From Collimonas arenae (GTDB taxonomy: Bacteria; Pseudomonadota; Gammaproteobacteria; Burkholderiales; Burkholderiaceae_D): a DNA stretch of 64,000 nt. The notes beneath the pieces are model-generated. The model saw nothing but the letters and a program-made list of their open reading frames with translations, searched no databases and was not told the DNA's origin. Shown here in pieces: positions 44,194 through 54,890 of the stretch; position 1 is the stretch's first letter; each line of letters starts with the position of its first letter. The stretch is from contig NZ_CP009962.1 of NCBI RefSeq assembly GCF_000786695.1, forward strand, positions 4,650,001 to 4,714,000, read 5' to 3'. The translations under genes were made by a program, and so were the position numbers.

Positions 44194-44892
44194 GGGGAGT
44201 GTCGGTGCAAGGAGTGGGGAAAGCCGGCTGCGCCAACGGCGCAATGCCCATCATGATAGCCGCGAAAGACGAGCCACGCTTAACCTGGCTACGCCGCACA
44301 TATCGCCGGCTGTTGAGCCATCGTCTGATGCTTGTAACAACTTCTAGCCGCCCGTTTTCTGAGAGTGCCTGTTCCCGTAGACCCGCCTGAATCAATGACA
44401 TGTTTACAATCAAACCAAATGTAACAATTAATTTGGCAAGTGCCTCGGCTTCGCTCTTGCTCCGCTGTTCAAAGCCATTCCCCGTCACTCTTTACACCAA
44501 TCAACAACTTGGAAATCTCACCAGTACCAAATGCTCACCGGCACATGTATCGGAAATGCCAGCACCTACGACTCCGGATGAACTCAGGGCACAATATTTA
44601 ACAAAAACTTAACAATAAAAGATAGTCAATAAGATTTTTTATTATAAGATTTACATTACCAGCCTATGTGATGTAAAGTTAAAATAAATTTCCATGTGGA
44701 AATTATTTTAGAAATAACTAATAATAAACTCCGTCAATATCGCTGTTCATGCGTCGCACCATGAGCAATCGGCTTCCCCTTCGGTTTGGGGAACCCGGCC
44801 CGGATCGGCATTGCATCAGGAACAAATGGACCTTGCTTGCGGGATGTATTTCGGCAGGGCCGGCTTTTTAACTCGACCAACGAGTGATTAAA
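44194..44892. promoter_or_regulatory. AT-rich leader region upstream of the exopolysaccharide locus
   Basis: About 690 bp without a convincing gene. The stretch 44590-44730 is strikingly AT-rich. It contains the inverted repeats TTTACAT-n14-ATGTAAA (44650-44677) and AATTTCCATGTGGAAATT (44687-44704). Further on, TTCCCC/GGGGAA (about 44777-44794) and GC-rich segments ending GGCCGGCTTTTTAA (about 44858-44871) could fold in the transcript and act as an attenuator. I could not match a known riboswitch. The functional reading is inference. Confidence 0.45.
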
Positions 44893-46083
44893 GTGAAAGT
44901 TCTATCCATCTTTGGTACGCGTCCGGAAGCGGTAAAAATGGCTCCGGTAGTCAAGGCTCTTTCCCGCGAGACCGGGATTCAGTCGCTTGTCTGCGTTACC
45001 GGCCAGCATCGGCTCATGCTGCAGCAGGTACTCGATCTGTTTGACATCAAAGTCGATCACAGTCTCGACGTGATGTTGCCGAACCAGACTCTGAACGGTT
45101 TGAGCGCGCGTCTGATCGGCCTGCTCGACCCTGTGCTTGAAGCGGTCAACCCTGACCGCATCCTGGTGCATGGAGATACCACTACCGCCATGATCGCCGC
45201 ATTGACAGCATTTCATCGACGTATTCCGGTGGCGCATGTCGAAGCCGGCCTGCGTACCGGCGATCTGACGCAGCCCTGGCCGGAAGAAATGAATCGCCGC
45301 TACGTCGATGTGGTGAGCGACCTTCTGCTGGCTCCCACGACAGGAGCCAAGACCAATCTCGCTGCCGAAAATCTTGCCGGCCGCATTATCGTCACCGGCA
45401 ACACGGTCATTGATGCGCTGCGCCTGACGATCGAGTCGATTGTCTTTAACCGGCAATTGCAGCAACGTCTCGATGCCCATTTTCCCTATCTGCAGCCGGA
45501 TAAAAAATTACTGCTTGTCACCGGCCATCGGCGAGAGAATTTCGGCTCCGGTTTCGCCGAGATTTGCGATGCGCTGGCGACGTTATCGCACCGTTCGGAT
45601 ATACAGATCGTCTATCCGGTGCACCTTAATCCGAACGTACAAGGACCGGTGCAGGCAACCCTGTCGCATTTGCCGAATATCCATCTGATCGAGCCGCTCG
45701 ACTATTTGCTGTTTGTGCGCCTGATGCAGCGCTCGCATGTGATCCTGACAGATTCCGGCGGCGTCCAGGAAGAAGCGCCGTCGCTAGGCAAGCCGGTGCT
45801 GGTCATGCGCAACGTGACGGAGCGTCCGGAAGCTGTCGCCGCCGGCACCGTGCAACTGGTCGGCACCGATTCGGCGCGGATCGTCGCCGCAGTTTCCCAG
45901 CTGTATGACGATGACGCCAGTTGGCAACAAGCGACGCAGCGCATCAATCCCTATGGAGATGGATACGCGGCAGAGCGAATCGTCGATGTGCTATGCGGCA
46001 GAACGATTACTGAATTTAGCGTGGGAAATTTTGCGCCGCAGGAAAAAGAGCGCCTGATGGCAAACAGCTTTCAAAATACCTAG
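44893..46083 (+). CDS. wecB: Non-hydrolysing UDP-N-acetylglucosamine 2-epimerase
   Basis: Interconverts UDP-GlcNAc and UDP-ManNAc in the cytoplasm. The 396-residue enzyme opens MKVLSIFGTRPEAVKMAPVV and shows VTGQHRLMLQQVLDLF, LVHGDTTTAMIAALTAF, AHVEAGLRTGDLTQPWPEEMNR, LVTGHRRENFG and DSGGVQEEAPSLGKPVLVMR, the complete epimerase set. The GTG at 44893 is chosen because it gives the family N-terminus; GTG at 44884 is in frame. No UDP-ManNAc dehydrogenase follows. The next gene is a polysaccharide synthase 92 bp on, so UDP-ManNAc may be a direct donor for the polymer. Confidence 0.93.
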   Translation: MKVLSIFGTRPEAVKMAPVVKALSRETGIQSLVCVTGQHRLMLQQVLDLFDIKVDHSLDVMLPNQTLNGLSARLIGLLDPVLEAVNPDRILVHGDTTTAMIAALTAFHRRIPVAHVEAGLRTGDLTQPWPEEMNRRYVDVVSDLLLAPTTGAKTNLAAENLAGRIIVTGNTVIDALRLTIESIVFNRQLQQRLDAHFPYLQPDKKLLLVTGHRRENFGSGFAEICDALATLSHRSDIQIVYPVHLNPNVQGPVQATLSHLPNIHLIEPLDYLLFVRLMQRSHVILTDSGGVQEEAPSLGKPVLVMRNVTERPEAVAAGTVQLVGTDSARIVAAVSQLYDDDASWQQATQRINPYGDGYAAERIVDVLCGRTITEFSVGNFAPQEKERLMANSFQNT

Positions 46084-46175
46084 AGCGGAATATCTGGAAG
46101 GTATGTCGTCAATATGCGCGGGATGCATTGTTGCCAGAATGCGCTCCAGGCACGGGTTTTATCTCAGGAGGAAAT

Positions 46176-47639
46176 ATGGATTGCTCGTCGCATATTTTTT
46201 GCAAAGCCGCTGCGCGATGGCCATCCTTTGCTCTCCTTTTTTCTTTCTTGCCAATGATGAGCGAGGCCAATGCATCGGCTATCCGATTCGATGCCCGCAC
46301 GGTGGAGCTGGATCTGATGACCACGATCCTGGGAGTCATCATTTTTTTGCTGGTGCTCTATACGCTGCGGCACTACTTGTTTACCCTCAACCGCCTGTTC
46401 GGCCGGCAACGCCAGCCCTATCTCGATATCGAACAGGCGACCTGGCCGGCGGTGGTTGTCTGCGTTGCCGCCCACAACGAAGAACGGGTAATCGCGGACG
46501 CGTTGAATGCCTTGCTCGACGTCGACTATCCACCCGACAGGCTGGTGATCATGCCGGTCAACGATCGCTCCACAGACGGCACGCGCGACATCATCGACCG
46601 CATCGCCGCTGCGCATCCCGGCCGCTTCACGCTGTTCCATCGGGACGGCGGCCGCCCCGGCAAGGCCGCTGCGTTGCGCGACGCGACCGAACGCATCCAT
46701 GCTGAAATCATTATCGTCTTCGATGCCGACTACCTGCCCGCACGCGGCCTGATCAAGCAGCTGGTGGCGCCGTTTTTCGATCCGGAGGTCGGCGCCATCA
46801 TGGGCCGCGTGGTTCCGCTCAACGCCGGCGCCAACCTGTTGACGCGCTTGCTGGATCTGGAACGGGCCGGCGGTTACCAGGTCGACCAGGCGGCACGCAT
46901 GAACCTGGGCCTGGTGCCGCAATACGGCGGCACGGTGGGCGGCGTACGACGCAGTGCCCTCGAGGAAATCGGCGGCTGGAACAGCGACATGCTGGCAGAA
47001 GATACCGATGTCACTTTCCGTCTTTTGCAGCACGGCTGGAAAACCGTGTATCAGAATCGCTCGGAGTGCTACGAAGAAGTTCCCGAAGTCTGGCCGGTCA
47101 GAATCCGGCAAATCAGCCGATGGTCGCGTGGCCACAACCAGGTCATGGAACGCAATCTGATGCGCTTGCTGAAAAATCCGCGCATCAGCCTGCGCGAAAG
47201 AGTGGACGGCGTCCTGCTGCTCTGCGTATTTGTCATGCCGCCATTGCTGGTGGTCGGCTGGAGTATCACCATCATCCAGTTTTTCATGACCTCACATCAA
47301 TGGCTGTTCGGCTGGCTGGCCTTAAGCGGCATGGTCGCGTATGGCGCATTCGGCACCAATGCGGCTTTTTTTGAAATGGCTGCGGCAACTTACCTGGATG
47401 GCAACCGCAACCGCATCCGCTTGCTGCCGCTGAATATTTTCGGCTTCCTGGTCAGTCTGGTAGCCATATCGCGCGCGGCATTTGTCCAGGTTCTCGACAC
47501 TTTACGGAAACGCGAACTGGTATGGCATAAAACCGAAAGATTCAGGTCGGTCTCGGCATCTCCCATACAGGAACTGCTCTTGCCGCGCGACGCAATGCCG
47601 CAAGGTTTGTCTGCCGAACGGCAAGAGAAGGTTGCCTGA
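46176..47639 (+). CDS. Processive family-2 glycosyltransferase (polysaccharide synthase)
   Basis: The 487-residue inner-membrane synthase is predicted to polymerise a sugar nucleotide and move the chain across the membrane. There is an N-terminal hydrophobic segment (15-35) and a TM helix (about 50-70). The GT2 domain has VCVAAHNEERVIADAL, VNDRSTDGT, IIVFDADYLP (DxD), LAEDTDVTFRL (catalytic TED-like) and RQISRWSRGHNQV, the QxxRW motif that marks processive enzymes. Three or four C-terminal helices (about 345-430) follow. AGGAGG precedes the ATG at 46176. It shares architecture with PgaC and YaiP. It is followed 2 bp later by the next gene. Confidence 0.9.
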   Translation: MDCSSHIFCKAAARWPSFALLFSFLPMMSEANASAIRFDARTVELDLMTTILGVIIFLLVLYTLRHYLFTLNRLFGRQRQPYLDIEQATWPAVVVCVAAHNEERVIADALNALLDVDYPPDRLVIMPVNDRSTDGTRDIIDRIAAAHPGRFTLFHRDGGRPGKAAALRDATERIHAEIIIVFDADYLPARGLIKQLVAPFFDPEVGAIMGRVVPLNAGANLLTRLLDLERAGGYQVDQAARMNLGLVPQYGGTVGGVRRSALEEIGGWNSDMLAEDTDVTFRLLQHGWKTVYQNRSECYEEVPEVWPVRIRQISRWSRGHNQVMERNLMRLLKNPRISLRERVDGVLLLCVFVMPPLLVVGWSITIIQFFMTSHQWLFGWLALSGMVAYGAFGTNAAFFEMAAATYLDGNRNRIRLLPLNIFGFLVSLVAISRAAFVQVLDTLRKRELVWHKTERFRSVSASPIQELLLPRDAMPQGLSAERQEKVA

Positions 47640-47641
47640 GC

Positions 47642-48715
47642 ATGAACCTTCTTTACCCGGCGCTCTTGTTGAGCAGCATGCTCCTGATCATGCTCCTGCC
47701 GTACGTTCCGGCGCTGCACGAGTGGCTGCGCCCCAGCGACGTGGCGCCGTTGCCTGTCAGGAGAAACGAGATAAACAACTTGCGCTATTTCGCCGACAGT
47801 TTTCGCATGACCATCGCCAACATGCCGGCGATCAATCTGCAAAAATTGAGGGACTTGCACACCGACCGCACCGTCAGCATCGGCGACAAGCTGCACGTCG
47901 TCCATCAACGGCTGGACGAAGACGCCGCCACCGGCTACTCCCCCTCAACCTTGCGCGTGCTGCAAAAGAAGAACGGTATCGTTATCTTTGTCCATGACGC
48001 ATTCCTTCCACCCGATAGCCATAGCCAAGCCGACCTGTTCGCCGCTTCCGATCTGCTGGTCGGCGACGGCGCCAGCCTGCGCGCCTGCTCGGCCCAGGGG
48101 GCGATCACACTGGGTGCGGATACAGTAGTGCATCGCTGGATCGACGCGCCCTGCATCCACGTCGGCAGCAATGCTTCGATTGACGGTCGCATCACCGCGC
48201 TAAAGGAAATCAATTTCTGCAGCGGCAGTCATTTTATCCGTGCGGGCGCGCCGACCATGCGCTTTGGAGACTCCAACGCCACCGCAGCGGCGGCGCCGCA
48301 AGCGTCATCGCTGCGCGTGCGCCATGTGCTCGACGAAGGAGAGCGGCAATCCGCTGCTCTCAGCCAGCACGGCGATTATGTGGTGCGCGGCGCATATCAG
48401 CTACATCCCGGCACAACAGTCTACGGCAACATCAAGACCTATGGCGACTTGCATCTGGGAGAGCGGACTTGCGTTGCCGGCAGCCTGGTTTCCAACAAAG
48501 ATATTGTGCTTGCCAAAGGCTGTTCGGTACTTGGACCTGTGATCAGTCAAAACGACATCGTGGTCGGTCCCGATTGCCGTATCGGCACACCCGATGCGGC
48601 AACCACCATGATCTGCCGCAGGCTGAGCATCGCCGCCGGCTGCGTGGTGCACGGCGTAATCACCACGCAAGACGGCGCCGTGATGGCGTCGCGGGAGGCG
48701 GCAGATGCAAGCTGA
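47642..48715 (+). CDS. Membrane-anchored polymer-forming (bactofilin-like) beta-helix protein
   Basis: The 357-residue protein has one N-terminal TM helix (about 3-24). A mixed region (25-110) follows, then short repeated strands of the right-handed beta-helix type: LLVGDGASLRACSAQGAITLGADTVV, HVGSNASIDGRI, TVYGNIKTYGDLHLGERTCVAGSLVSNKDIVL and GCSVLGPVISQNDIVVGPDCRIG are successive turns (quoted as separate pieces: GASLRACSAQGAITLG, NIKTYGDLHLGE, SVLGPVISQNDIVVG). This periodicity is typical of polymer-forming cytoskeletal proteins. It could scaffold the synthase at the inner membrane. Starts 2 bp after the synthase gene and overlaps the next by 11 bp. Confidence 0.7.
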   Translation: MNLLYPALLLSSMLLIMLLPYVPALHEWLRPSDVAPLPVRRNEINNLRYFADSFRMTIANMPAINLQKLRDLHTDRTVSIGDKLHVVHQRLDEDAATGYSPSTLRVLQKKNGIVIFVHDAFLPPDSHSQADLFAASDLLVGDGASLRACSAQGAITLGADTVVHRWIDAPCIHVGSNASIDGRITALKEINFCSGSHFIRAGAPTMRFGDSNATAAAAPQASSLRVRHVLDEGERQSAALSQHGDYVVRGAYQLHPGTTVYGNIKTYGDLHLGERTCVAGSLVSNKDIVLAKGCSVLGPVISQNDIVVGPDCRIGTPDAATTMICRRLSIAAGCVVHGVITTQDGAVMASREAADAS

Positions 48716-49748
48716 ATTGTGCCGATGCCGGTGGCGGGCAGTCTCTTTGTTTTTTTTTGCGCTCATCAGCACTGTCTGTTGCGGCAGGCCGGTAGCGGCT
48801 GCGGCAGAAAATTTACCGGCCACGCCAGACATCGCCGCGTTTGCCGATTTCGCATCCCCGAGCGGCGCCCTCACAGTCTTCCAAAATGGCGATTACGTCG
48901 AGCCTTACTTTGCAATTAAAGCGCTGCTGACGGCACACAGGCTAGGCATCGACGTTGCTCCGGTCGCAAGCGCTTTCGCCCGTTGGCTGTTGCCATTCCA
49001 GCAAGCCAACGGCCCCTTTCCCCGCATCTGTCGCAGCGGCATGGCGGACTGGCTGGCCTGCGGCGCGGCCGACGCCGACGACTCGCTGGATGCGCTGTGG
49101 TGTTTGCTGTCGGCGGAAGTGCTGCCTGGCGATACCGCGCTGGCGGCCAGCTGCGCCAGATCCCTTGAAAATCTGGCTACCCTGTGGCAACCGGCGCAAC
49201 AAACATTCCACGCCTTGTCCGGCGGCAGTGCAGCTTATTTCGCCGACAATGTTGAAGTGATTGCTGCGTTAAGCAGGTTGCGCAGCAACGCAGCCACCCG
49301 CGCACGCTTTGCCGTCCAGCTGGCGGCGCTGCCCGGTAACGCCAGCCTGCAGCAAGGACTCCAGCGTACTTATGGCTACGATCCGGGGGGCGCCCTCGAG
49401 CCGGAACGCGCCAGCGTCCCGCCGACACCTTACGGGTTCTATCCGAATGCCGTAGCGCCAGTCTATCTATGGCTATACGGCCTGCGCAGCGGCGCCAGCG
49501 GCGAGCGCTACTGGCAAGCATGGATGAAACGCTATGGCGCGCAATGGCTGGCCGGTGAAAGCGATCGCTATCCGTGGGGCCTGATCGCCTTCGCCGCGTA
49601 CCTCAGCGGCGATCAGGCAAGCGCCCGCAACTGGCTCGACAATGCCGACGCATGGCGCGCCGCCGGCCGCTGGAACATCGTTGAAGAAGGCGCCCGCATC
49701 GGTTTGCGTAATGCATTGAAAACCGCGAACGCGAGGCCGCCGGCATGA
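48705..49748 (+). CDS. Secreted helical-barrel protein, candidate polysaccharide hydrolase or lyase
   Basis: The 347-residue precursor has a signal peptide (about 12-34, ending AAA). The mature part is almost wholly helical with repeating segments (YFAIKALLTAHRLG; ARWLLPFQQANGPFPRI; DADDSLDALWCLLSAE; YWQAWMKRYGAQWLAG), which suggests an alpha/alpha toroid like that of glycoside hydrolase family 8 or polysaccharide lyases. The acidic cluster DADDSLDALW near 125 and YGYDPGG near 225 are possible active-site parts. The family is not recognised with confidence. In comparable operons a periplasmic hydrolase trims the polymer. It overlaps both neighbours (11 and 4 bp). Confidence 0.6.
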   Translation: MQAELCRCRWRAVSLFFFALISTVCCGRPVAAAAENLPATPDIAAFADFASPSGALTVFQNGDYVEPYFAIKALLTAHRLGIDVAPVASAFARWLLPFQQANGPFPRICRSGMADWLACGAADADDSLDALWCLLSAEVLPGDTALAASCARSLENLATLWQPAQQTFHALSGGSAAYFADNVEVIAALSRLRSNAATRARFAVQLAALPGNASLQQGLQRTYGYDPGGALEPERASVPPTPYGFYPNAVAPVYLWLYGLRSGASGERYWQAWMKRYGAQWLAGESDRYPWGLIAFAAYLSGDQASARNWLDNADAWRAAGRWNIVEEGARIGLRNALKTANARPPA

Positions 49749-51598
49749 ACGCGCTATCTCGACTGCCGTTGCGCAAGATCGTGCCGGCGCTGGCGATAGC
49801 CATCATCATCGGCGGCACGGCAACCTGGGTCTATCGCCTCAATCAAGTCAGTCCGGCGCAGTGGCAAAGCGACGCCATCGCCCTGATCCTGCCGGACGAC
49901 CTGTCGGACGCCAGCAAGCTGTTTGAATCGGCATGGCTGGATGCCGCCGCAGAAGAAGGGGTTCATCTGGAAGCGGTGAGCGCCTCGGAATTTTCACGGC
50001 GCGGCCTGCAAGGCGAACGGCCGTTTGCCGGCGTGATTCTGCCGGACACCATCCATCGCCGGATCAATACCGCCTTCGTCAACCAGATCAGCCGCTTTGT
50101 CGACAATGGCGGCGCCCTGATGTTGGTAGGCGACGCCGGGGTGCTGGATGAAAACGGCTATTACACAGAACCGGCATCGCGTTTTTCCACGCTGGCGGGA
50201 ACCAGCTATGCCATGTATCAAACGCTGCACGACAAAATGTCCTTTAACCCGACCATTTCCGGCAGTCCGCAGATCATGCAGGAGTTGCTGATCCCCCCAG
50301 GACGCTGGATCAAGAGCGGTCAACAGGCAGTATTGTCCGGCTACGGCGAGGACACCCTGCGCTATCCGGTCCTGCATACTACTGGCCCCTATTCCGGGAC
50401 GCTGCACATGCAGGCGGAAGGCAACACGGTGATCGCCGGCGAGCACAATTTTGGCAAGGGCCACGTGCTGTTCGTCAACCTGCCGCTGGGATATCTGAAG
50501 CTGCGCACCGACGGCATTCTGATGCATGGCTTCCTGCACTACTTCGCCAACCGCATCATGGGCCAGCCGCAACTGTCCGCCGCCCCCGAAGCGATCGGCG
50601 GGCTGGTCCTGAACTGGCACTGCGACGCCAAGATCTGCATTCCCGCCATGGATCAGTTGATCAAGGCCAGCGTTTTCAAGCGCGGACCGTTCAGCATTCA
50701 TGTGACCGCCGGGCCGGACCAGCGCGCCTTCGGTGACGGCCTCGGCGTCGACCTCAACAACAATCCGACGTTCCAGGGACTATTGCAAACCTTGCTGGCC
50801 CAGGGTAATGAGATCGGCAGCCACGGCGGCTGGATACACGACTGGTTTGGCAAGAACCTGGCAGAAGACAACCAGGAACAAATGCTGCCCTACCTGGAGC
50901 AGAATGCCGACGCCGTACAACGTCTGATCGGCCACAAACAGACCGAATATTCGGCGCCAACCGGCAACCAGCCGGTCTGGGTTACCGACTGGCTCGACGG
51001 ACAAGATGTCTTGGCGTATTACTTCACCGGCAATATCGGACAAGGGCCAACCCACACCTATCGCGACGGCCGCCGCGACCAGCGTATCTGGTCATTTCCG
51101 GTACAAACCTATGGCCACATCAGCACCATCGAAGAAGCCTATATGGAGCACATTCCGGAAAGCGAAATCAGCAACTGGTTGACGTCGCTGGTGCAATTTA
51201 CCGAGAATACCGGGCAGATAAGACTGATCTATTTTCATCCACCGGGCGCAGTCCTGTATCCCGACGCCATCAACCAGCTGATGCTGGCCGCCGACGCAGC
51301 GGAAAAAGATGGCCGCTTTCGCTGGCGCACCATGACGGACCTGGCGCGATTCATGAATCGCCGGGAACAGACGCAATGGCATATTTCCCGTGACAGCAAT
51401 ACTGTTATCGTCGATGCTGCCAATACCGCATCGCTGAAGCAGCTAAGCTGGCTTTTCCCGGTCGCGCTGTATGCAAGACCACGCATTACGGAAGGTTCAG
51501 CTAAAGTGGAACAACGCGGCGATAGCTGGGCCGTGGTCGCCGGCGATGTAAAACAACTTCGTATTTCAACACCGTTGATAAAGGAAGCATTGCATTGA
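49745..51598 (+). CDS. Membrane-anchored polysaccharide deacetylase with GATase-like N-domain
   Basis: The 617-residue protein has an N-terminal anchor (about 12-30), a periplasmic Rossmann-type region (40-280) with AGVILPDTIHRRI, ALMLVGDAGVLD and GKGHVLFVNLPLGYL, similar in layout to ThuA/GATase-1-like domains, then a NodB-type deacetylase region (290-545). In the latter NWHCDAK replaces motif 1 (usual TFDD), IGSHGGWIHDWF matches motif 2 (H-x3-H type), and YSAPTGNQP resembles motif 3. A C-terminal extension (550-617) is beta-rich. It probably removes acetyl groups from the secreted polymer. Overlaps of 4 bp at both ends show tight coupling. Confidence 0.75.
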   Translation: MNALSRLPLRKIVPALAIAIIIGGTATWVYRLNQVSPAQWQSDAIALILPDDLSDASKLFESAWLDAAAEEGVHLEAVSASEFSRRGLQGERPFAGVILPDTIHRRINTAFVNQISRFVDNGGALMLVGDAGVLDENGYYTEPASRFSTLAGTSYAMYQTLHDKMSFNPTISGSPQIMQELLIPPGRWIKSGQQAVLSGYGEDTLRYPVLHTTGPYSGTLHMQAEGNTVIAGEHNFGKGHVLFVNLPLGYLKLRTDGILMHGFLHYFANRIMGQPQLSAAPEAIGGLVLNWHCDAKICIPAMDQLIKASVFKRGPFSIHVTAGPDQRAFGDGLGVDLNNNPTFQGLLQTLLAQGNEIGSHGGWIHDWFGKNLAEDNQEQMLPYLEQNADAVQRLIGHKQTEYSAPTGNQPVWVTDWLDGQDVLAYYFTGNIGQGPTHTYRDGRRDQRIWSFPVQTYGHISTIEEAYMEHIPESEISNWLTSLVQFTENTGQIRLIYFHPPGAVLYPDAINQLMLAADAAEKDGRFRWRTMTDLARFMNRREQTQWHISRDSNTVIVDAANTASLKQLSWLFPVALYARPRITEGSAKVEQRGDSWAVVAGDVKQLRISTPLIKEALH

Positions 51599-52671
51599 AA
51601 ACAGCACTGGCAACCCTGGGCCTGTCTTTCGGCTGCGTCGCAATCCCTTCTTCCGTGCTGGCTGACGAAAGCGAGAACATACTGGCGCCGCCATTGCACC
51701 AGGCTCGCTTGATGCCGCTGCCTGGCATGCCTACCATGCTCACTGCTGAACCGGCCGCTGAACCTGTCCCTACACTGGTCACTGAGCCAGCCGCGCCCCC
51801 GCAGGCGGTTGCTTCAGGGGCGCCGATAACGCCAACGCCAGCCGCAACAGTTGCCGATACCCAGCCAGTTTCAGCGCCGCTGGCGCTGGCTGCGCCCGTC
51901 GATGCGGCTCCCGTTGCAGTCGTGCCGGTTGAAGCCGCGCCGGCGGCAGCCCCCGAACTCAGTCCCGAAACCGCTGCGCTCGAACTGGTCGCCGGCGACG
52001 GCCACATGAGCGCCGGTTATGGCCAGGCCCGTATGATGGCGTTGCGCGGCATGGCAGTGACATCGCTGGGTGTGGTGCAGGGAGAACTGACGCAGCAGAC
52101 CCGCTTCGGCTATACCGGTAATTACGGTGACGTCTCGCTGACCCACGATTTCTCCCCGGAGTATTACAGCACGGTCAGCATCGGCACCGGCAACAGCCCA
52201 TTGTTCTCGAGCTGGCGCGTGGATACCACCGGCTACCGGAAATTCGGCAGCGAACGCCAGTACGTCGCCGGCATCGGCGGCTATTACGCAAAAGGCAATG
52301 AGAGCGCCCGTTCGGACAAGGGCCTGCTGTTCACCGGTATTACCTATCTGAGCGGGCTGGTCATCGAAGGCGGCGTGCGGCTGAACTGGGCCGATCCAGG
52401 ATCGATACTCGGTCCCAGCGAATACGTCGCGGCGACTTTCGGCAGCGACGACCGGCGCGCCATCATTGTGCGCTACGAGCATGCCAAGGAGACCTACAAG
52501 GTATTGCCGGGAGGGCCGGAACTGGTCAACTTCAAGAGCAATACCGTCAATCTCCAGTGGCGCGAACGCATCAGCTCCGCCAGCCTGCTGCTGGCCGGCC
52601 TTGAATACTACCGAAGTCCGCTCTATGACCGGCTATCGCTCAACCTTGGCTGGCGCTGGAGCTTCAGATGA
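51595..52671 (+). CDS. YaiO-type outer-membrane beta-barrel with Pro/Ala linker
   Basis: The 358-residue precursor has a signal peptide (about 1-22, ending VLA), a 100-residue Pro/Ala/Val-rich periplasmic stretch, and a C-terminal barrel of about 200 residues. The barrel has strands such as FGYTGNYGDVSLTHDFSPEY, SRWRVDTTGYRKFG-type turns, and a final LSLNLGWRWSF ending in the aromatic BAM signal. The barrel resembles the YaiO family; in E. coli yaiO lies beside yaiP (GT2 synthase) and yaiS (deacetylase), a parallel to this operon. It is a likely export channel. It overlaps both neighbours by 4 bp. Confidence 0.75.
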   Translation: MKTALATLGLSFGCVAIPSSVLADESENILAPPLHQARLMPLPGMPTMLTAEPAAEPVPTLVTEPAAPPQAVASGAPITPTPAATVADTQPVSAPLALAAPVDAAPVAVVPVEAAPAAAPELSPETAALELVAGDGHMSAGYGQARMMALRGMAVTSLGVVQGELTQQTRFGYTGNYGDVSLTHDFSPEYYSTVSIGTGNSPLFSSWRVDTTGYRKFGSERQYVAGIGGYYAKGNESARSDKGLLFTGITYLSGLVIEGGVRLNWADPGSILGPSEYVAATFGSDDRRAIIVRYEHAKETYKVLPGGPELVNFKSNTVNLQWRERISSASLLLAGLEYYRSPLYDRLSLNLGWRWSFR

Positions 52672-53558
52672 AAACCCGGCAAGGCGTCGTATCCGATGAT
52701 GCCGCCAAAGACAAACTGGCGGCGCCAAACGCTGCGCCCGGCACGCCTGACAAAACGGTTAAAAAAAACAGCCACATCAAAAAGCACCGGGACGCGGTAG
52801 TCAATCCGCGCTTTACCGGCTTTGGCGGCCAGCTGATACAGACCCATCGCGCATTGCGCCGCCTAGCTTTTCCGCACAGCCGCTGGATCGACGTCTTGCT
52901 GGTGCCGGCACTCATTTTCAGTTGCACCTTGCTGGCATGGCCCTTGATCGCCGAGCTGTGGTCGGGGATCATCCGGTTCTGGGCCAACGGCCTGGGCAAC
53001 GGGATGCTGCTGCGAGCGGAGCATACTTCTTTTCCCGGCATTCAATCCGTTCCCTATGCCCACGTCGAGGCTGCGTTGCCTGACCCTTTGCAATGGTGGG
53101 CGGGCATGCTGGTCAGCATCACGCTTTTGCTAGCCACCACTTTGCTGCCAATGCGCATGCTGCCAATCACCTATGCCTTGCGCGTGGTCGGCCTGGTGCA
53201 GTTGGCAAGCCAGTTATATTTCTATTTTTGGGCCGCGGAATTCCCTTATCAGTCGGCTTCTTCCATTTCGGCGCTGACGCAAGTCTCCATGGTGCTAATC
53301 CTGCTAACGCCATGGATCTATGGCCTGCTGTACAACATCTTCGACTTTGGCATCCCCCGCAAAATCCTGCTGTCGCTGCTGGCGGTGCTGTACCTGATCC
53401 TGCTGACGCCGTTTCAATATACGTTTGCGGCCTGGCTGATGCTGCGCTATTCACTACTATGGCACCCTCTCATCTATCTGTTGGGCTCCAGCCTGATCCA
53501 GTTCGGCGCCCTGGTCGGCTTCTATTCCTGGGCCATGAGCTGGCAGCGGCGCGAATAG
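52668..53558 (+). CDS. Six-helix inner-membrane protein of unknown family
   Basis: The 296-residue protein begins with a basic, charged cytoplasmic stretch of about 70 residues (many Lys/Asp/Ala), followed by about six hydrophobic helices (about 73-98, 143-162, 170-190, 202-225, 231-260, 267-289). A periplasmic loop lies between the first two. I recognise no family. As the last gene of the polysaccharide operon, overlapping yaiO-like by 4 bp, it may serve as a synthase partner (as PgaD or a flippase does elsewhere) or as an acyl- or sugar-modifying membrane protein. That is inference from position. Confidence 0.65.
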   Translation: MKTRQGVVSDDAAKDKLAAPNAAPGTPDKTVKKNSHIKKHRDAVVNPRFTGFGGQLIQTHRALRRLAFPHSRWIDVLLVPALIFSCTLLAWPLIAELWSGIIRFWANGLGNGMLLRAEHTSFPGIQSVPYAHVEAALPDPLQWWAGMLVSITLLLATTLLPMRMLPITYALRVVGLVQLASQLYFYFWAAEFPYQSASSISALTQVSMVLILLTPWIYGLLYNIFDFGIPRKILLSLLAVLYLILLTPFQYTFAAWLMLRYSLLWHPLIYLLGSSLIQFGALVGFYSWAMSWQRRE

Positions 53559-53935: not shown

Positions 53936-53998
53936 CGAAGCGCATCGGCAGTTCTGATGCGCTTTCGTGAAAAAGCCTGATCGACGGCTTTTTTTTCA
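53936..53998 (+). terminator. Two tandem terminators
   Basis: First hairpin GCGCATC / GATGCGC (about 53940-53962) followed by TTTC; second AAAAAGCC / GGCTTTTT around TGATCGAC followed by more T (about 53970-53998). They close the small basic-protein gene and rule out an upstream start for modA. Confidence 0.85.
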
Positions 53999-54065
53999 TC
54001 TCTCGCTATATATTTTAAAATACAGCGATTACAAACCCATCACTGCCCCTGCAGCCATTTTGAAC

Positions 54066-54890
54066 ATGTCCAGACTTTCACTTTTCACCCGATCGATGTT
54101 GCCTTTGACTCTACTGCCTTTGACTCTGCTGGCCATGGCGATTACCCCAGCCAAGGCCCAGGACCCCGTCAAGGTTTTTGCGGCAGGTAGCCTGACCGGC
54201 CCATTGACCGTACTTGCCAAGCAATTCGAGGCCGACACCGGCCTGCCGGTGGCAATGGTATTCGGACCATCCGGTCTCCTGCTGGAACGTATAGAGCAAG
54301 GAGAGCACGCCGATGTATTTGCATCGGCGAACATGGCGCATCCGCAGCAGCTTGCGCGCGAAGGCAAGGCCATCCCGGCGCTGGTTTTTACCCGTAACCG
54401 CTTGTGCGTGCTGGCCCGTCCAGAGCTACAGCTAAGCAGTGAAAATATGCTGGCGAAACTGCTCGACCCCAGCGTCAAGATCGGCACATCAACCCCCAAG
54501 GCCGACCCAGGCGGCGACTATGCGTGGCTGCTTTTTGCCAAGGCCGGCAAGCTCCAGCCTGGCGCCAAAGAACTGCTGGAAAACAAAGCCCGGCAACTGG
54601 TCGGCGGCAAAAACAGTCCGCCGGTACCCGCCGGCCAGGATGCGGTGAAATATTTTCTGGAACATAAACAAGCCGATGCGTTCATCGGTTATTGCAGTTC
54701 ACGACAAACAGTACCCGACGCCCGTTTCACCAAAGTAGAACTGCCGGCGGAACTCGCCATTTCGGCGGATTTCGGCCTGACCGTATTAAATCCGAACACA
54801 GGATCGCATGATGCAGCGTATCGGTTTGCGTTATTCCTGCTCAGTCCGCAAGCCCAGCAAATCTTTGTTAATTATGGATTTTCAAAGTAA
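54066..54890 (+). CDS. modA: Molybdate-type ABC transporter substrate-binding protein, orphan
   Basis: The 274-residue periplasmic binding protein of the ModA class has a signal peptide (about 1-28, ending AKA). The domain begins VKVFAAGSLTGPLTVLAKQFE, with FGPSGLLLERIEQGEHADVFASAN, VKIGTSTPKADPGGDYAW and DAFIGYCSSRQTV, which fits oxyanion-binding members but with a Cys-Ser-Ser loop not typical of classic ModA. No modB or modC is adjacent, so the anion is uncertain (molybdate, tungstate or another). The ATG at 54066 is used because the in-frame upstream start lies within a terminator. Confidence 0.8.
   Translation: MSRLSLFTRSMLPLTLLPLTLLAMAITPAKAQDPVKVFAAGSLTGPLTVLAKQFEADTGLPVAMVFGPSGLLLERIEQGEHADVFASANMAHPQQLAREGKAIPALVFTRNRLCVLARPELQLSSENMLAKLLDPSVKIGTSTPKADPGGDYAWLLFAKAGKLQPGAKELLENKARQLVGGKNSPPVPAGQDAVKYFLEHKQADAFIGYCSSRQTVPDARFTKVELPAELAISADFGLTVLNPNTGSHDAAYRFALFLLSPQAQQIFVNYGFSK

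Follow-up and report, generated by a model that had tools for sequence, protein, structure and literature searches.

To our knowledge, few synthase-dependent exopolysaccharide machines are known. In PGA (PgaABCD / IcaA), the roles comprise an amino-sugar polymer, periplasmic deacetylation, a hydrolase and exit through the outer membrane. The window that we analysed is a 64,000-nucleotide stretch of the 5.64-Mb genome of Collimonas arenae (G000:C1:4650001-4714000), and its positions 44893-53558 hold seven open reading frames, all on the plus strand. On balance, we believe that these genes encode a synthase-dependent exopolysaccharide system for an N-acetylmannosamine (ManNAc)-containing, partly deacetylated polymer, exported by an outer-membrane barrel of the YaiO family. 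The locus is a real, conserved and apparently undescribed variant of this machinery; no description of the seven-gene set was found in full-text searches of one open-access library. Its features, in window positions, are as follows:

44893..46083, plus strand: wecB, non-hydrolysing UDP-N-acetylglucosamine (UDP-GlcNAc) 2-epimerase, which would supply UDP-ManNAc (TIGR00236, 451 bits)
46176..47639, plus strand: processive polysaccharide synthase of glycosyltransferase family 2 (GT2) (PF13641, E 3.2e-31)
47642..48715, plus strand: membrane-anchored bactofilin-like beta-helix protein (PF04519, 22.6 bits, below the cut-off of 27.9)
48705..49748, plus strand: secreted alpha/alpha-toroid glycoside-hydrolase candidate, "toroid" below (PF22422 matches of family members)
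49745..51598, plus strand: membrane-anchored periplasmic GATase-like plus divergent NodB-like polysaccharide deacetylase candidate (PF01522, near the cut-off)
51595..52671, plus strand: YaiO-family outer-membrane beta-barrel, probable exporter, TTG start (TIGR04390, 159 bits; PF19413, 53.6 bits)
52668..53558, plus strand: inner-membrane protein of about six helices and no known family, "six-helix protein" below (hydropathy)
44490..44883, plus strand: intergenic region, candidate operon promoter region (low G+C, four promoter-like sites)

An earlier note on this DNA had described seven genes that share a strand, with overlaps or gaps of no more than 2 bp among the last six, and the coordinates agree: 92 nt separate wecB from the GT2 gene, the next gap is 2 nt, and the following genes overlap by 11, 4, 4 and 4 nt.

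Comparison with described systems

Membership of the locus in PGA, Nfr or yai was rejected on profile scores against E. coli proteins. With PGA the locus shares a GT2 synthase of the same broad kind and, by annotation, the roles listed above. The synthase profile reaches 134.9 bits with PgaC, 54.1 bits with YaiP and 20.7 bits with NfrB. However, no window-family profile exceeds 1.6 bits against PgaA, PgaB or PgaD, and the present locus adds the wecB, bactofilin-like and six-helix proteins.

The Nfr/NGR system (NfrB, NfrA, YbcH and WecB) shares with the locus a GT2 enzyme, UDP-ManNAc supplied by WecB (here at the gene level) and an outer-membrane protein as exporter. In the excerpts of the literature used here, its linkage to wecB is reported (PMC8669469), NfrB provides experimental precedent for a GT2 synthase that uses UDP-ManNAc, and phage N4 infection needs wecB and not wecC (PMC8669469, PMC8669472). 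On the other hand, the MshEN cyclic di-GMP (c-di-GMP) domain is not found on the present GT2, the synthases are only weakly similar (20.7 bits), no profile scores above 0 bits against NfrA or YbcH, and the deacetylase, hydrolase, bactofilin-like and six-helix proteins are additional here. E. coli NfrB/NfrA/WecB is the nearest functional precedent for the substrate.

The earlier note had named E. coli yaiP-yaiO-yaiS as the nearest parallel known to it. In the E. coli yaiS-yaiP-yaiX-yaiO locus, too, a GT2 gene adjoins a gene for a YaiO-family barrel, and TIGR04390 also matches in E. coli, but the parallel is weak: YaiS is annotated as a PIG-L and not a NodB deacetylase, the yaiX position is annotated as an LbetaH acetyltransferase, and the GT2 scores far higher with PgaC than with YaiP. 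The barrel profile gives 1.1 bits with E. coli YaiO (and 4.6 with YaiS, presumably by chance), and neither wecB nor a toroid or six-helix gene is annotated in the yai locus. The bactofilin-like profile matches the acetyltransferase at the yaiX position weakly, with 17.3 bits. According to annotation, IS2 interrupts yaiX in MG1655, and an IS3-family element interrupts the PIG-L gene at the yaiS position in strain C10 (L087:8845-10873, L089:719-2390); a query made of yaiO and the end of yaiX matches 4902/5426 E. coli genomes.

Among the PEP-CTERM/Wzx-Wzy clusters of Burkholderiales, psc1 of Rubrivivax gelatinosus and the cluster of Janthinobacterium resemble the locus in having wecB and a polysaccharide deacetylase. 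In the published excerpts, psc1 combines Wza/Wzx/Wzy export with several glycosyltransferases, and the Janthinobacterium cluster has EpsH and several glycosyltransferases (PMC3684757, PMC5080296). These clusters differ in being without the single processive synthase and barrel of the present locus.

Conservation of the module and its neighbourhood

For the survey, contigs were scanned with the deacetylase alignment alone, and the best 80 of 138 confirmed loci were scored with trimmed profiles. All seven families are held by 48 of these 80 loci and at least six by 65, so that the arrangement is more than chance. The earlier note's claim of a complete exopolysaccharide operon of the synthase-dependent type, with an unusual make-up, is supported. 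Over the 80 loci, wecB was found in 66, GT2 in 68, the bactofilin-like gene in 69, the toroid in 52, YaiO in 70 and the six-helix gene in 68, with the deacetylase in 80 by selection. Within the 65 loci the GT2, bactofilin-like, deacetylase, YaiO and six-helix genes occur in all, wecB in 63 and the toroid in 50. The complete loci span 7.5-10.7 kb, and all non-deacetylase matches lie on one strand in 63/65 loci (exceptions L043 and L074). Betaproteobacteria contribute 41 of the 65, Acidobacteriota 18 and Gammaproteobacteria 5, with 1 unassigned; the Acidobacteriota loci share only 25-65% identity with the window proteins.

The gene order of the window, wecB-GT2-bac-tor-dac-yai-tm6 (bactofilin-like, toroid, deacetylase, YaiO and six-helix genes abbreviated), recurs in the gene-neighbourhood survey that the earlier note had proposed, and the module turned out far better conserved than that note could know. 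Other orders include wecB-dac-GT2-bac-tor-yai-tm6, GT2-bac-tor-dac-wecB-yai-tm6, GT2-bac-tor-wecB-yai-tm6-dac and GT2-bac-dac-wecB-yai-tm6-tor-dac; linkage has therefore been kept through rearrangement. Of the 15 loci with fewer than six families, 12 are shorter than 13 kb and may be cut, and L071, L073 and L075 are full-length. In some of the 12 (L051, L083 and L086), however, kilobases of flanking DNA lack the other genes, so that these loci resemble stand-alone or second copies. Second deacetylase copies do occur: L075 shares a contig with L024, L082 and L083 belong to the assembly of L041, and L086 belongs to that of L055. The six-helix profile matches in 11/15 Collimonas genomes, 27/294 genomes of the family and 6/398 of the phylum, where two matches (E 4e-4 and 8e-4) are probably false. 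The module is scattered and rare.

No eighth conserved gene was found by BLAST clustering of neighbours within 6 kb (E<=1e-8, >50% coverage), a procedure that could overlook families whose divergence is as rapid as that of the barrel or six-helix protein; the next commonest neighbour family occurs in 10/65 loci. It is represented by L053:20078-21787 (minus strand), with relatives in L012, L036, L039, L042, L044, L046, L049, L054 and L059, and its one scanned member is a diguanylate cyclase (GGDEF), which hints at c-di-GMP control. No known c-di-GMP-binding domain is listed for the seven proteins in a domain scan at E<=1. A further neighbour, L081:11769-13454 (plus strand; relatives in L061 and L084), resembles glutamine-fructose-6-phosphate aminotransferase (SIS and GATase_6, one member scanned) and would feed UDP-GlcNAc.

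In nine loci (L033, L034, L042, L045, L046, L049, L052, L053 and L054), from Sphaerotilus, Variovorax, Pseudorhodoferax, Rhodoferax and one Burkholderiaceae locus, a toroid and a second deacetylase gene lie downstream of the six-helix gene. Sphaerotilus, a genus known for its sheaths, carries the cluster in L042, L049, L053 and L054; in the excerpts of the Sphaerotilus/Leptothrix sheath literature the cluster is not named, and the sheath genes are called not well understood. Some genes are in two pieces, through decay or sequencing errors: wecB in L015, L061 and L066, GT2 in L027 and L040, and the deacetylase in L045, L074 and L077. At L073:11801-15582 (Bradyrhizobium), an inverted, divergent set of wecB, bactofilin-like and GT2 genes stands beside the deacetylase, with barrel and six-helix gene unmatched.

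A phage origin was rejected, the deacetylase being unmatched in 50,697 phage records and the toroid, deacetylase and bactofilin-like proteins being without a PHROG at E<=0.01. So was a plasmid origin: out of 72,556 plasmid records, a single replicon, from Cupriavidus, has a match to the barrel, at 30% identity (E 1e-14). The region 44490..44883 upstream of the operon has a G+C content of 41%, against 58% window-wide. Its four plus-strand promoter-like sites are consensus matches only, with a total over the scanned region near the shuffled expectation (7 promoter-like sites vs. 4.1 +/- 2.0 expected; 14 terminator-like sites vs. 10.4 +/- 3.6), and are uninformative. Downstream, positions 53967-54890 encode an apparently unrelated extracellular solute-binding protein (SBP_bac_11).

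WecB and the proposed supply of UDP-ManNAc

The WecB protein scores 451 bits with TIGR00236 (cut-off 210) and is colinear with PDB entry 1vgv over residues 5-375. The GTG at 44893 sets it in register with E. coli WecB, and an alternative in-frame GTG lies at 44884. The five residues that we take to be catalytic (K, D, E, E and H) are kept in 66 of 67 alignment rows, the remaining row being gapped. An excerpt of the literature also gives K15 of WecB as catalytic (PMC8669472).

This wecB is the sole TIGR00236 match in the genome. Among genomes of the family, wecB is present in 27/27 with the six-helix gene and in 169/267 without it (Fisher p 9e-6, uncorrected for relatedness). For 25 of these 27, the distance between wecB and the six-helix gene on the same contig is at most 7 kb, as read by eye from match tables; the exceptions are G005, an assembly of 420 contigs, and G013. 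G013 has its wecB in the same place as Collimonas sp. OK607, the source of L011; in that locus the dehydrogenase and the synthase on either side are present, with wecB missing between them. The two six-family loci without a local wecB are L011, whose genome has two TIGR00236 copies elsewhere, and L019, whose genome has one.

The cluster copies of wecB do not form one clade. The tree comprised 66 of 81 rows (45 cluster, 20 other and E. coli) after 15 near-copies were dropped, and excluded cluster copies below 450 bits or from loci with fewer than five families. An approximately unbiased (AU) test gave p 1.3e-50 against holding the 45 cluster rows apart from the 21 others, the test presuming a group named beforehand and the grouping here having followed sight of an earlier tree. 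At least eight changes are forced by the starred branches. Because the gene is the only copy in the genome, occurs in 63/65 loci, has cluster copies that are not one clade and is backed by a distant copy where the local one is missing, wecB is an integral part of the module; its repeated recruitment or replacement fits what a substrate requirement would produce.

No match to E. coli WecC was found in the 80 loci or in the window, in a search that does detect two positive controls, WecC at 949 bits and the Ugd-like protein of this genome at 103. The Ugd-like protein, the single strong UDP-sugar dehydrogenase of the genome, is encoded next to LapB (583 bits); its score is 480 bits with a UDP-glucose dehydrogenase model (cut-off 700) vs. 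140 with the WecC model (cut-off 459). The failure to find WecC argues that UDP-ManNAc is the likely substrate of the operon. The earlier note had suggested ManNAc or a partly deacetylated amino sugar in the polymer; with the only wecB of the genome heading the operon and WecC not found, ManNAc is likely. Deacetylation is likely as well. The ManNAc reading is well supported genetically, and from it we infer the chemistry of the polymer.

Protein features, proposed mechanism and alternatives

The GT2 protein (487 aa; alternative in-frame TTG start at 46128) matches only glycosyltransferase families at E<=1. Its nearest equivalog is PgaC_IcaA, with 128.2 bits vs. a cut-off of 422.3, and it shows a weak sequence match to 8smm. 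In 69 alignment rows, DxD is kept in 68, ED in 69 and QxxRW in 68, with gaps in the remainder; the QxxRW motif already recognized in the earlier note is QISRW at residues 312-316. Unlike wecB, the synthase shows a gap in scores: across the 80 loci, the copies in clusters reach 556-754 bits, fragments of two broken ones 253-469 bits and the two remaining GT2 matches 111 and 115 bits.

The bactofilin and NodB assignments of the earlier note stand at the level of resemblance: by curated cut-offs the window proteins fall short (22.6 < 27.9 and 22.2 < 23.1 bits, respectively), with the NodB match reaching 24.6 bits in a six-frame search. Within the bactofilin-like family, 16 of the 17 aligned sequences reach E<=0.01 with PF04519, the best E being 2.5e-8. 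Simple hydropathy, used in place of a trained predictor, gives a single N-terminal helix, followed by more Lys/Arg than precede it in 67 of the 68 rows scored out of 70; by the positive-inside rule, the C-terminal beta-helix is therefore probably cytoplasmic. The six-helix protein has no Pfam or NCBIfam match and shows six hydropathy peaks in the family mean, against five above threshold in the window protein alone. Among the 18 homologs listed, all named ones are called "hypothetical protein".

The hydrolase and deacetylase activities are candidates suggested by residue conservation and distant family matches. The toroid of the window has no Pfam match at E<=1; of 18 aligned family members, 5 show similarity at E<=0.1 (best 4.2e-6, about 27.0 bits vs. 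a cut-off of 27) to PF22422 (MGH1-like_GH), a glycosidase domain resembling mannosylglycerate hydrolase. Residues D123, D126, E184 and C119 are kept in 53/53 rows and D125 in 43/53. The deacetylase consists of an N-terminal anchor, a GATase-like domain (weak PF08532 match) and a divergent NodB domain. Canonical NodB/CE4 motifs are DD, HxxxH and a C-terminal H; here H292, H360, H365 and H498 are invariant in 81/81 rows, with a spacing that differs from the canonical one. Among 8000 sequences scored, 1944 were deacetylase homologs at E<=0.001. Searched against the PDB, the two profiles found no toroid relative and no deacetylase relative under E 0.6; the best-named relatives of both proteins are from Collimonas. 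The YaiO protein scores 159 bits with TIGR04390 (cut-off 32), is the sole match of that model in the genome and carries an Ala/Pro-rich stretch ahead of the barrel. Its family makes it the probable exporter of the polymer.

We propose the following course. WecB, from its family and catalytic residues, would convert UDP-GlcNAc to UDP-ManNAc, which the GT2, whose motifs are those of processive enzymes, would polymerise while threading the chain across the inner membrane. The bactofilin-like protein, with its one-helix anchor and probably cytoplasmic beta-helix, and the six-helix protein may keep the synthase in place or in order. On the periplasmic side, the NodB-like protein would strip some of the acetyl groups and the toroid hydrolase would trim or clear chains, and the YaiO barrel, by family, would export the polymer. 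That the bactofilin-like domain may order synthases is the boldest part, resting on topology and domain similarity. More speculatively still, and at a strength that we would call tentative, the loci may represent an undescribed class of systems, present in Proteobacteria as well as Acidobacteriota and producing poly-ManNAc that is partly deacetylated, in which an anchored cytoplasmic bactofilin scaffold arrays the synthases so that aligned fibres exit.

Several observations weigh against a ManNAc polymer made and processed in this way. The system is known here from its genes alone, and the polymer follows by inference. Since wecB is common in family genomes without the module (169/267), and in published excerpts also accompanies PEP-CTERM clusters of the Wzx/Wzy type (PMC3684757, PMC5080296), its presence alone cannot name the polymer. 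A GT26 (WecG-like) gene at G000:C1:3300198-3300692 could also use UDP-ManNAc. In the toroid, E328 is invariant in the first 18 rows and kept in only 39/53, and the protein is absent from 15/65 loci, 13 of them from Acidobacteriota, and is thus not essential. In the deacetylase, N-W-H-x-D replaces the canonical DD motif, and D294 is Cys in 10/81 rows. Finally, the GT2 is nearest to PgaC, a UDP-GlcNAc polymerase. As a separate observation, the GT26 gene lies about 2 kb from a weak GT2 match, perhaps in another glycan cluster, and might compete for UDP-ManNAc.

The similarity to PgaC (134.9 bits, the best among the E. coli proteins compared, with PgaC_IcaA the best equivalog) leads to an unlikely alternative, in which the polymer is poly-GlcNAc or a related product of UDP-GlcNAc made by a remote PGA analogue, and WecB does no more than balance UDP-GlcNAc against UDP-ManNAc or works for a different glycan. 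The GT26 gene elsewhere in the genome also speaks for it. Yet 128 bits is far below the PgaC_IcaA cut-off of 422, similarity to PgaA, PgaB and PgaD was not found, and a local wecB in 63/65 loci, drawn from several wecB lineages, also speaks against it. We consider it improbable that the product is a heteropolymer in which ManNAc alternates with another sugar. A single GT2 can be bifunctional, as in hyaluronan synthase, and the weak match to 8smm points the same way, but a second sugar-nucleotide gene was not seen among the commoner neighbour families (10 representatives scanned), where a housekeeping sugar nucleotide would not show. That the genes are not one functional unit and that some are bystanders, the toroid hydrolase for instance, we regard as very improbable: the toroid is missing from the 15 loci mentioned, whereas the frames overlap, linkage is kept in several orders across two phyla, and the six-helix gene is present in 65/65 loci.

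If the preferred reading, a partly deacetylated ManNAc-containing polymer exported by YaiO, is true, it adds to the synthase-dependent systems a machine with its own precursor enzyme, its own exporter and two unnamed protein families, the toroid and the six-helix protein. Homopolymers of ManNAc are rarely documented, an excerpt of one report naming the capsule of N. meningitidis A and the proposed NGR glycan (PMC8669472). Ordinary soil and freshwater bacteria would become test beds for the selection of UDP-ManNAc by a processive GT2, and the tie between a bactofilin-like protein and a glycan synthase could be tested on this locus; the scaffold, if that reading is true, would amount to a cytoskeleton that serves a single polysaccharide machine. 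The module would also give context to many proteins that are currently listed without a function.

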